DNA from: Leptospiraceae bacterium
GTDB taxonomy: Bacteria; Spirochaetota; Leptospiria; Leptospirales; Leptospiraceae
Reading direction: 5' to 3'
DNA: 64,000 bases
Assembly (NCBI GenBank): GCA_947458405.1
Contig: CANGZW010000001.1
Coordinates: forward strand, 1-64,000
A model generated the notes under the pieces. That model was given only the letters and a program-made list of their open reading frames with translations, was not told where the DNA came from and did not search any database. Below are positions 6,756 through 26,908 of this stretch, one piece after another. Each line of letters opens with the position of its first letter. Within the stretch, counting starts at the first letter, position 1. A program made the position numbers and the translations under genes.

Positions 6756-7694
6756 ATGGCAAAGAAAAAAAATGAGCAGGGATTTTTACTCTTTGGTTTC
6801 CCTATTTTCCATCCCTTAAACGTAATTTTACTTCTCAATGTACTTGTGTATCTCATCCAAATAAGCATCTTTGAAGATTCAGATCCAAGTCTACTTTTTA
6901 CTATCGACCGACTTTTTGGGCTAGAACCCCGTTCTTTTATAGAAGGGAGATACTGGCAAATAATTACATATGGTTTTTTCCATGCTCCCGGAGGGATTTT
7001 ACCGCTTCATCTCATTTTTAATATGTATGGATTTTATCTATTAGGTATGAATATATTACCGAAAATTGGAAAAATTAAATTTATATCCTTATACTTTCTC
7101 TCCTTACTAACAGGTGGAGCAATGGTTGTTATAAGTGCCTATCTTGGAAAGTATTTGTATGGCACGGATACTACAATGATGGTTACTATTGGAGCGAGTG
7201 GTGCTATCTTTGGACTCTTAGCTATGTTTGGTTTTTTTTATCCCGAGCAGGAGATTTGGATATTATTTTTTAATATTAAGGCCAAAAATGCAGTGTGGTT
7301 TTCATTACTTTTAGGGGGAGTTTTTACTTATTTAGGTTCTGCTCCCATCAGTAATACATGTCATTTAGGTGGGGCATTAGGCGGAATTGTTTTTTATCAA
7401 TTATTTGTTAAGTCTAGTAAAGAAAGTATACTCAGTGATGTAATTGCTAAAGCTACAGAAATTGTTGATAAAGTAGAAATAAATGAAGATCCAATTTTAA
7501 AAAAAAATCAACTACACTTAAAAACTATTTCTTCTATGGAAAATTTTGCAGGGAAAGAAAAATATTTACTACCTTTGCAAATTGAGAACGCAAATATTTG
7601 CCCTCCAGGGACATTCAATACGCAAGATTCTTATTGTTTACAATGTGAATGGTTGGTAAACTGCCTGTTACATAAATCTAGAGAGGAACAGTAA
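6756..7694 (+). CDS. Rhomboid family intramembrane serine protease with Cys-rich C-terminal tail
   Basis: 312 aa with about six to seven membrane helices in residues 15-220. The catalytic serine is in GASGAIFG (~146-153) and the catalytic histidine in NTCHLGGALGG (~200-210); a His/Asn-bearing helix LPLHLIFNMYGFYLLG supplies the oxyanion side. The family cleaves membrane-anchored substrates inside the bilayer. After the membrane core is a ~90-residue cytoplasmic tail ending with four cysteines spaced C-x11-C-x2-C-x5-C, then His, which could bind a metal or iron-sulfur cluster. That tail is not part of the standard rhomboid fold. The gene appears to have its own promoter and lacks a ribosome site. 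Confidence 0.9.
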   Translation: MAKKKNEQGFLLFGFPIFHPLNVILLLNVLVYLIQISIFEDSDPSLLFTIDRLFGLEPRSFIEGRYWQIITYGFFHAPGGILPLHLIFNMYGFYLLGMNILPKIGKIKFISLYFLSLLTGGAMVVISAYLGKYLYGTDTTMMVTIGASGAIFGLLAMFGFFYPEQEIWILFFNIKAKNAVWFSLLLGGVFTYLGSAPISNTCHLGGALGGIVFYQLFVKSSKESILSDVIAKATEIVDKVEINEDPILKKNQLHLKTISSMENFAGKEKYLLPLQIENANICPPGTFNTQDSYCLQCEWLVNCLLHKSREEQ

Positions 7695-23978: not shown

Positions 23979-25211
23979 GTGGCAAAAATAAATGAAAATT
24001 ATTTAAAACTTAAAGCAGGATATTTGTTCCCTGAGATTTCAAAAAGGGTTAAATTGTTTACCGAATCAAATCCTGGAAAAAAAGTAATACGATTAGGAAT
24101 TGGTGATGTAACTTTGCCTTTGCCTCCTTCAATTGTAAATGCAATGAAATTAGCATCAGAAGAAATGGGAACTTCTTCGGGATTTAAGGGCTATGGACCT
24201 GAACAGGGATACTCTTTTTTGATAGAAGAAATTATTAAAAATGATTATAAACCCCTAGGAGTCTCATTATCTCAGGATGAAATTTTTGTTTCTGATGGTT
24301 CAAAATGTGATACTGGAAATATACAAGAGATATTTTCTATTGATTCTAAAATCGCAGTAACGGATCCAGTATATCCTGTATATGTAGATACAAATGTTAT
24401 GGCTGGTCGAACGGGAGAATCCACTTTAGATGGAAGATATTCTGGACTAGTATATTTACCATGTACAAAAGAAAATGGATTTCAACCTGACTTTCCTAAA
24501 GAAAAAGTAGATTTAATTTATCTCTGCTACCCTAATAATCCAACTGGTACTACAATAACCAAATCAAGATTAAAAGAATGGGTAGAATATGCTAAAAAGA
24601 ATAATTCAATTATTCTTTATGATGCGGCATACGAAGCCTTTATTTCTGACCCAAATGTTCCTAGATCTATATTTGAGATAGAGGGAGCTAAAGAAGTTGC
24701 TATGGAATTTAGATCATTTTCTAAAACAGCTGGATTTACAGGAACACGATGTGCATTTATCGTAATACCAAAAGAATTAAATGGAATAACTTCCAATGGA
24801 GATAAAGTAAGCATTAATCAATTATGGAACAGACGGCATACAACTAAATTTAATGGTGTTTCGTATCCAATCCAAAAAGCTGCGGCGGCTTGCTATTCCG
24901 ATTCTGGTAAAAAAGAAGTTAGAGATAATATTTTGTACTACATGGAAAATGCAAAAATTATACGAGAAGGCATTTCGAAAAATGGATATGAAGTATATGG
25001 GGGAGTGAATGCACCGTATATTTGGTTAAAAACACCAAAAAGTATGACATCTTGGGACTTCTTTGATCAATTACTTAATAAAATTCAAGTAGTTGGAACC
25101 CCAGGATCAGGATTCGGTCCATCCGGAGAAGGCTACTTCAGGCTTTCAGCATTTGGAAAGAGAGAAGATGTAATTGAGGCTGTCTCAAAAATTGGTTCCC
25201 TATCTTTTTAA
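23979..25211 (+). CDS. dapL: LL-diaminopimelate aminotransferase
   Basis: 410 aa, GTG start with AAGGA eight bases upstream. A PLP-dependent class I/II aminotransferase that converts tetrahydrodipicolinate directly to LL-diaminopimelate, the DapL route used by Leptospira, Chlamydia, plants and some others. Diagnostic segments are [17 protein letters not shown] at the N-terminus, [58 protein letters not shown] and the PLP lysine in [11 protein letters not shown]. The product feeds lysine and peptidoglycan synthesis. A 13-bp perfect hairpin begins 30 bases after the stop. Confidence 0.95.
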
Positions 25212-25241
25212 AATTATCCCAAATAATTTTAAATTAATTTA

Positions 25242-25291
25242 CATTAAAAGAGAATTACTTCTAGAAAAAATATGAATTTTCTCTTTTAATG
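25242..25291 (+). terminator. Probable dapL terminator
   Basis: CATTAAAAGAGAA (25242-25254) pairs perfectly with TTCTCTTTTAATG (25279-25291), a 13-bp stem with a 24-nt loop, followed by CATTTTATTAT. It lies 30 bases past the dapL stop. Confidence 0.5.
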
Positions 25292-25328
25292 CATTTTATT
25301 ATAAAAAAATATTAACTTTTGTCCCCCC

Positions 25329-25361
25329 AATCGTCTAAAATTAAGTTAGATGGTTTTTTTT
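25329..25361 (+). terminator. Rho-independent terminator with no gene directly upstream
   Basis: A ten-pair stem (two G-U) between 25329-25338 and 25346-25355 with a 7-nt loop merges into eight T residues (25354-25361). Preceded by C6 at 25323-25328. The nearest upstream gene, dapL, already has a hairpin, so this may end a short RNA or act as a second terminator. Confidence 0.5.
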
Positions 25362-25473
25362 GAGAAACTATATAGATTTATTAAATTTCCTCTCAAAAAT
25401 AAAAAATTAAAAATCTAAAAAAAAAATCAAAAAGTGAAATAATTTTGTCTCCCATAGCCATTATACTATTAAG

Positions 25474-25543
25474 TGTCTCACGGTACTTAATTTGTTTGGT
25501 GTGAATATTAAGACTGGAGTTCAAATACTTCAGTCTATTTTTT
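25474..25543 (+). ncRNA. Candidate small RNA ending in a terminator
   Basis: TATACT at 25462-25467 could be a -10, although no good -35 is seen. About seven bases on, a ~70-nt transcript would run through GTGTCTCACGG and end at the hairpin 25511-25519/25528-25536 with T6 (25538-25543). No coding capacity is present. The call rests on the isolated terminator plus the -10-like sequence only. Confidence 0.25.
25511..25543 (+). terminator. Rho-independent terminator in gene-free region
   Basis: AGACTGGAG (25511-25519) pairs with CTTCAGTCT (25528-25536) through nine pairs with one G-U; loop TTCAAATA; then ATTTTTT. It is the best-formed terminator in this stretch and lies 130 bases upstream of the sigma-like gene. 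Confidence 0.6.
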
Positions 25544-25672
25544 AAAATCAAAAGTCAATTATAAAAATAGCAGATACTAAAGGAGGATCGAATTCAATAA
25601 ATATTATTCTTATTATCAATTAGCCTAGTCGTGGATGGAAAAACTAACTTAAAATAAATGGAGATTATGCTT

Positions 25673-26332
25673 ATGAATTTAGAAAGAAGAAGAGAAATAA
25701 TTAGAGGTGTAAGAAGAAATGATGCAAGATCAATTGATATATATTCAAGAGTAATATTTGGAATAATTGAGATCAATTTAAAAGGAGAATCAAATAACCT
25801 CTATAACTTAAACAAACACAGGTTTCCTGACATGGAGTCTGAAGATTTTCAAAATACAATTCTTTTCGAAGTTTCAAGAGTTTCTATCCTAAATGAAACT
25901 TCTCAGAAGCTATTTGAATTAACTGAAGATCTAGGTGAATTTAAAGCCTATACATTTGGAATATTTCACAATGTAGTTCGGTCAACAATAGACAAATGGA
26001 TACGAAGAAACAAAAATAGGGAAAAATTACAAGAAAAGAGAGAATCAGAAGATTTTCTAATCGATGAATGTTTACCAAGGAATTATGGTGCCGAATTTGA
26101 AGAGAAAGAGCATTATGATTATATGTTAGAAATTGCTCATGATGAAGTTCGTAAGCTCGAGCCATCTGATAGAAAAAAAGTTCTTGAATTATGGTTAAAT
26201 GGGGTTACACAAGAAGATATTTGCCGGTTACTAGAAATGAATCGAAATACTGTTTCTAGTCATATTCACAGAGGAAAGAAATTCTTGAGAAAACAACTCA
26301 GAGATAGATTAGATTTAGAGGGAGGCTTTTAA
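25673..26332 (+). CDS. Sigma-70/ECF-like RNA polymerase sigma factor
   Basis: 219 aa from the ATG at 25673, chosen because GGAG lies nine bases before it; in-frame ATGs at 25658 and 25667 are alternatives. The N-terminal part is helical with weak region-2 similarity (FKAYTFGIFHNVVRSTIDKWIRRNKN). The C-terminus is a clear region 4 helix-turn-helix: LEPSDRKKVLELWLNGVTQEDICRLLEMNRNTVSSHIHRGKKFLRKQL. Family members direct RNA polymerase to alternative promoters. The next gene abuts its stop and is not an obvious membrane anti-sigma factor. It could instead be a sigma-related DNA-binding regulator, because region 2 is poorly conserved. Confidence 0.7.
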   Translation: MNLERRREIIRGVRRNDARSIDIYSRVIFGIIEINLKGESNNLYNLNKHRFPDMESEDFQNTILFEVSRVSILNETSQKLFELTEDLGEFKAYTFGIFHNVVRSTIDKWIRRNKNREKLQEKRESEDFLIDECLPRNYGAEFEEKEHYDYMLEIAHDEVRKLEPSDRKKVLELWLNGVTQEDICRLLEMNRNTVSSHIHRGKKFLRKQLRDRLDLEGGF

Positions 26333-26908
26333 ATGGGTTTCAATCAGGATAGATATCCTAGGAGATCCTTTCAGGATCCCAGGAAGGATAATTTATTTCG
26401 AAACAATCGTTATGATTTATTTCAGACGTACACTATAAAACAAGATTCAAGAGGCAATATTAATTTTGATGAAAATAATTTTGCCTCCTTGGCTGAAAAT
26501 TTATCTTCTGAGCTTCAGAGAGAATACCCATTAATTATGAGTATTTATAAATTAGAAGATCATTGGGAATTGGATAGGAGTGATACAAGTTCTACAAAAA
26601 AAAATAATTGGGATGATCTATCTCTTGAAAGCTATAATGGTATTAAAGACCTAAATTTAGTTTTAGAGTGGAAGGTAGCTTCAAGAGAAACTAAAGAGAT
26701 TGAGTTATTTTTAAATATGAAAGCTATTTCGAATAATTTTACATGGAATTTTCGTAAAAAAGATAGTTTTCCTCCTGCTGAATTTTCAATGATTGTACCA
26801 ATAGCAACAAACTTAAAACTATTCTGGAATGAAGATTATTGTCTCGATATTGCACAACCTAGTGGAGGAGTGATATCAATCTGGTTATCCACGCGAGATT
26901 ATACATAA
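26333..26908 (+). CDS. Hypothetical protein coupled to the sigma-like gene
   Basis: 191 aa. The ATG directly follows the upstream TAA, and GAGGG sits upstream within the sigma gene, so the two are co-translated. The first ~30 residues are Arg/Asn/Asp-rich and probably disordered; the remainder alternates short strands (LVLEWKVAS, IELFLNMKAI, FSMIVPIATNLKLFW, GGVISIWLST), suggesting a beta-rich cytosolic domain. No signal peptide, no membrane helix and no known family recognised. Its position suggests a partner or regulator of the sigma-like protein. Confidence 0.65.
   Translation: MGFNQDRYPRRSFQDPRKDNLFRNNRYDLFQTYTIKQDSRGNINFDENNFASLAENLSSELQREYPLIMSIYKLEDHWELDRSDTSSTKKNNWDDLSLESYNGIKDLNLVLEWKVASRETKEIELFLNMKAISNNFTWNFRKKDSFPPAEFSMIVPIATNLKLFWNEDYCLDIAQPSGGVISIWLSTRDYT

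Follow-up and report, generated by a model that had tools for sequence, protein, structure and literature searches.

The interval between dapL and a sigma-like gene

The window, a stretch of 64,000 nucleotides from a Leptospiraceae draft genome of 3.94 Mb in 198 contigs, carries on its plus strand dapL (23979–25211), which encodes LL-diaminopimelate aminotransferase (TIGR03542, 614 bits against a cut-off of 364.7) and whose closest named counterparts, at 77–79% protein identity, are found in metagenome genomes of Leptospiraceae and Leptospirales. Its downstream neighbour on the same strand (25673–26332) encodes a sigma-70-like, ECF-type protein that matches sigma-70 region 4 (PF08281, 33.9 bits) and ECF models, with a TIGR02937 score of 39.1 bits, slightly below the cut-off of 42.9. 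The reading frame is also open from an ATG at 25658; the best start is the ATG at 25673, and the GGAG lying 9 nt before it (25660–25663, plus strand), read from the sequence, is the likely ribosome-binding site.

Between the dapL stop at 25211 and the sigma-like gene lies a gap of 461 bases with three hairpins followed by T-rich tails. The earlier note had described the gap as gene-free, and rightly so: its plus strand holds no ORF of at least 50 amino acids, and the longest frames within it, 33 and 35 codons from stop to stop, both lack an ATG. The coordinates given there for the gap and the hairpins are likewise correct; a further stem-loop (H3) and an A-rich tract (25362–25443), to which we return below, were absent from that description. 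The first hairpin, H1 (25242–25291, plus strand), is AU-rich, has 13 pairs (−13.8 kcal/mol, z −3.4) and begins 30 nt past the dapL stop; its tail is T-poor, the T run being interrupted, and H1 is the probable end of the dapL transcript. The second, H2 (25329–25361, with the hairpin at 25329–25355, plus strand), joins a weak stem of 10 pairs (−7.7 kcal/mol) to a run of 8 T. On short slices its z score falls between about −3.7 and −3.9, on 25300–25362 it is −1.95, and in the gap scan described below the hairpin scores −7.1 kcal/mol, so close to the scan threshold (−7) that it could be a chance occurrence. H2 may be a backup terminator of dapL, or the end of a very short RNA.

The orphan Shine-Dalgarno sequence reported for this gap exists, and its significance does not hold. 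The word AAAGGAGG is present at 25579–25586 on the plus strand with no ATG, GTG or TTG 2–13 bases after it, but such words occur at the level expected by chance when motif counts are set against shuffles. Ten copies are found on both strands of 498 kb (our 498-kb motif counts include a 4-kb overlap, the stretch L123 being untrimmed), five of which have a start codon at 2–13 bases. Gaps hold three copies where shuffles give 1.4, and at least three turn up in 9 of 60 shuffled sets; none of the three gap copies has a start codon at 3–12 bases. AGGAGG occurs five times in gaps, one copy having a start codon, against 6.8 in shuffles. As a rule, good Shine-Dalgarno-like words in the sampled gaps lack a start codon. 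Leaderless transcripts are moreover common in L. interrogans according to the extracts of one study drawn on here (PMC5243855), which makes the orphan word even less telling.

H4, an orphan intrinsic terminator

The last hairpin, H4 (25511–25543, with the hairpin at 25511–25536, plus strand), is a strong intrinsic terminator of 10 pairs, G-U allowed, followed by six T (−14.0 kcal/mol, z −5.2). It lies 299 nt past the dapL stop and, on the strand of the sigma-like gene, precedes the start of that gene by about 130 nt. For comparison, we looked for hairpins followed by a T run in 193 gaps, each 30 bases or longer, from a sample of 494 kb out of 3.94 Mb made up of the window and 22 further stretches (L122, L123 trimmed of its overlap, and L124–L143). 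L122 was included in this sample though it had been chosen for holding a paralogue, and the gaps were delimited by crude ORF calling (minimum 70 amino acids, taken greedily by length); some of the sampled gaps therefore hold short genes or tRNAs. The number of sites was 39 at a threshold of −7 kcal/mol, 24 at −10 and 14 at −13, compared with 9–14, 1–4 and 0–1, respectively, in five shuffled sets. Strong sites are nearly all real, about 30% of those at the loose threshold would be chance, and with 14 strong sites against 0–1 in shuffles H4 is not a chance occurrence. When the gap itself was shuffled (n = 400), neither a site at or below −13 kcal/mol nor two sites ever appeared.

The position of H4 is unusual. 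Twelve of the 14 strong sites begin no more than 45 nt after a same-strand stop codon; one in L124 and H4 itself do not. Of the 60 codirectional gaps that measure 100 bases or more, the gap between dapL and the sigma-like gene proved to be the sole one with a site of −10 kcal/mol or stronger lying over 100 nt beyond the stop. H4 is a real intrinsic terminator and truly an orphan. The earlier note had proposed two orphan terminators, of which H4 stands; H2 is weak and may be a backup for dapL. The site in L124 (8315–8348, minus strand) is the sole other sampled terminator at or below −13 kcal/mol without a same-strand gene nearby, and the 732-base gap around it gives no Rfam match.

A candidate small RNA ending at H4

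Directly before H4 lies H3 (25453–25503, plus strand), a 51-nt stem-loop that is unremarkable when taken alone (−11.7 kcal/mol, z −1.6; 12 of 200 shuffles are as good). Together, H3 and H4 make up a compact predicted fold at 25450–25543 (−25.7 kcal/mol, z −4.4), as good as which there is none among 200 shuffles, and which delimits, on the plus strand, a candidate small RNA of about 94 nt whose start is placed by reasoning on the promoter discussed below. Over 25444–25543 the GC content is 32%, compared with 15–26% in the A-rich flanks; 16% of 100-nt gap windows attain 32%. The genome encodes Hfq (PF17209, 104 bits, cut-off 27; G000:C27).

The A-rich tract between H2 and H3 (25362–25443, plus strand, 59% A) is a putative promoter region. 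It ends in an extended −10-like box, TGAAATAAT (25435–25443, plus strand), read from the sequence, which would place the start of an RNA at about 25450, at the foot of H3. Comparable A- or T-rich tracts occur in 7 of 136 gaps of at least 82 nt, and the other six are all in divergent (−+) gaps; by class, 6 of 52 divergent gaps have one versus 1 of 84 other gaps. Divergent gaps are where promoters must lie, and the likeness of the tract to them may weakly favour a promoter here, weakly because promoter-like sites in the region stand at chance number (20 against 19.4 expected) and because TG.AATAAT shows no enrichment (5 against 3.4) in a set of 206 upstream regions, the last 200 bases before each gene in the window and in L122–L143. 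In the same set TTGACA is about threefold enriched (18 against 6.0) and TATAAT is not (59 against 62). We also considered an ECF-type promoter, GTCTAAAAT, seen by eye at 25333 and upstream of a paralogous sigma gene, and rejected it: in those 206 regions GTCTAA shows no enrichment (8 against 6.0), and a −35/−10 pair AACTT-N15-TCTAA does not occur (0.2 expected). As a separate observation, the 11-mer TTTTGTCYCCC occurs at 25317 and 25443, 126 bases apart and each time shortly before a hairpin. It has three copies on both strands of 498 kb, two of these in the gap between dapL and the sigma-like gene; a comparable 11-mer pair arises in 12 of 1000 shuffles of the gap, the motif having been picked post hoc.

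We favour, with a probability of roughly 0.45, the reading in which this intergenic interval encodes a single small RNA, transcribed as a unit of its own. H1 would terminate dapL transcription, backed up by H2. From a promoter in the A-rich tract an RNA would begin at the foot of H3, fold into H3 and stop at H4 with a U tail. It would act in trans on whatever target it may have, most simply as an Hfq-bound antisense regulator, and the sigma-like gene would be transcribed from its own promoter downstream of H4. We lean to this reading because H4 is far beyond chance and positioned unlike other strong terminators, because the H3–H4 fold is significant and sits in a GC bump, because an A-rich tract of this kind is otherwise found only in divergent gaps and Hfq is encoded, and because no ATG-started reading frame ends at H4. 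Against it count the absence of any relative of the interval from the 7 other family genomes, the differing gene order after dapL, the chance number of promoter-like sites, the lack of enrichment of TG.AATAAT, the ordinary character of H3 alone and the frequency of a 32% GC content among gap windows. H4 would most likely be the terminator of a small RNA of an ordinary kind, and the rest of the pattern beyond the orphan H4 would be chance or plain termination. Where the earlier note had spoken of one or two small RNAs, one, formed by H3 and H4, is plausible; a second would have to end at the weak H2, perhaps a backup for dapL. A tiny hydrophobic peptide of 19 codons from TTG 25445 (frame 25403–25504) was also considered and set aside as weak: no ribosome-binding site stands before it, and it starts ahead of the presumed RNA start.

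In trans-acting small RNAs of the Hfq class, which come from gene-free sites, a stem-loop precedes an intrinsic terminator that ends in a U tail. In its predicted fold and sequence the candidate shares these traits, and the genome encodes Hfq. In the extracts of the L. interrogans study already cited (PMC5243855), 277 and 226 putative small RNAs are given at 30 and 37 °C, most without a following intrinsic terminator, and no general promoter motif is described besides that of sigma-54. Like the intergenic small RNAs of that species, as presented in those extracts, the candidate belongs to a leptospiral genome encoding Hfq; unlike most of them, this predicted RNA has a terminator, which is its strongest feature. 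A limited literature search returned no report of this locus.

The earlier note had proposed covariation across relatives as a check. Neither the 7 other genomes of the family nor 50,697 phage and 72,556 plasmid records yielded a relative of the interval with which to compare it; in relatives its DNA gave just short AT-rich matches, mostly to the A-rich tract. Its core (25444–25545), searched against the 7 other family genomes at E values up to 1, yielded matches of 20–30 nt, and eight of the nine match loci examined sit in reading frames of at least 227 codons, L148 being the exception. The gene order after dapL differs in all six of the other family genomes with a dapL match, and also in L038–L040, some of which are the same genomes by sequence. 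At curated thresholds the only known RNA families in the window are tRNAs, and a relaxed RNA-family scan restricted to the interval turned up two matches to eukaryotic microRNAs, both with E values above 1, which we discarded as chance.

Competing explanations and the paralogous sigma pair

Small-RNA transcription is favoured over plain insulation of the sigma-like gene, then over the remnant of a lost gene, and lastly over an attenuating leader. All three hairpins with T-rich tails lie on the dapL strand, and H1, with its poor T tail, and H2, with its weak stem, are imperfect; H1, H2 and H4 might accordingly be serial leaky terminators of dapL that shield the downstream gene, and the supposed RNA would be a long dapL 3′ tail. 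A sigma-factor gene downstream would be a reason for tight shielding, and no additional promoter is required. However, a strong terminator so far past a stop is unique among the 60 codirectional gaps, and the compact fold of 25450–25543 is left unexplained. We consider this explanation less likely than a small RNA, and the best of those that compete with it.

The sigma-like gene and its neighbour (26333–26908) recur as a strongly diverged pair on another contig (C8) of the same genome, with 24% and 28% identity; the two loci are 25673–26908 in the window and 6286–8252 in L122. The neighbour matches no family in Pfam, PHROGs or NCBIfam, its predicted structure is not usable (mean pLDDT 40), and it has borderline matches in 2 of 295 other genomes of the phylum. 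Neither gene of the pair was found in the 7 other family genomes at E 0.001, and no viral relatives of the two proteins were confirmed. Ahead of the second sigma gene, a stretch of 283 bases shows no likeness to the interval: of 200 shuffles, 178 gave an equally good alignment. Since the upstream regions of the two sigma genes are unlike, a leader is not a feature of the gene pair. The gap inside the second pair gives a longer, AT-rich alignment to the interval, whose score 1 of 200 shuffles attained; this alignment spans H1 and the AT-rich bases that follow, includes neither H3 nor H4, and was given no weight. Between the genes of the second pair (L122, about 7500–7690) we noticed by eye an apparently decayed sigma region 4, which suggests a former third sigma copy.

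Such decay at the paralogous locus, together with gene content after dapL that differs in every relative examined and the low complexity of the A-rich tract, brings to mind a former gene between dapL and the sigma-like gene, now decayed or deleted, of which H4 would be the terminator and the A-rich tract and the orphan Shine-Dalgarno word the debris. In the short frames, however, we recognised no protein remnant, and H4 is intact whereas neutral decay should have damaged it; we find this history improbable.

In attenuators and riboswitch leaders, a terminator precedes a regulatory gene that shares its strand, as H4 precedes the sigma-like gene. The earlier note had envisaged a leader working through terminators and anti-Shine-Dalgarno pairing, in which H4 would attenuate transcription and the ribosome-binding site would be the point of translational control. 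In the minimum-energy fold of a read-through RNA, CUCC (25449–25452) does pair with the GGAG of the orphan word (25582–25585), with a probability of at least 0.9 when folding begins at 25388 and a lower one from other 5′ ends; the pairing has four pairs only and leaves the sigma start untouched. Yet no competing anti-terminator emerges when the pairs of H4 are forbidden, as only H3 is then left (−11.7 against −25.7 kcal/mol), joined in the minimum-energy fold from 25388 by one small hairpin, and the upstream partner that duplex scans propose for the 5′ arm of H4 (−9.5 kcal/mol) is weaker than H4 itself. Unlike in a leader that sequesters the ribosome-binding site, the sigma start region is not masked by pairing: 25546–25690 is less structured than all 200 shuffles (z +2.8), and in the sigma GGAG the first three bases mostly stay unpaired, which is less true of the final G and of part of the spacer. 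The leader as a whole does not exceed shuffles in structure (z +0.75 and +0.25), the interval has no Rfam match, and no homologous leader precedes the paralogous sigma gene. The proposal of a leader is not supported and strikes us as still less probable than a vestigial gene.

A further reading, in which a lineage-specific RNA with its UCUCC and terminator just ahead of the sigma-factor gene would, when free, use this UCUCC to bind the ribosome-binding site of sigma (a duplex predicted at −8.3 kcal/mol, UCUCC being predicted single-stranded at the 5′ end of the candidate) and in which, upon read-through, the orphan GGAG would occupy UCUCC and let sigma be expressed, is very improbable.

If the predicted RNA is not transcribed, the locus merely shows transcription stopping between two genes. 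If it is, a poorly studied leptospiral lineage would gain one more intergenic RNA and, with so few strong intrinsic terminators in the genome, an orphan one would be a good marker of small RNAs.
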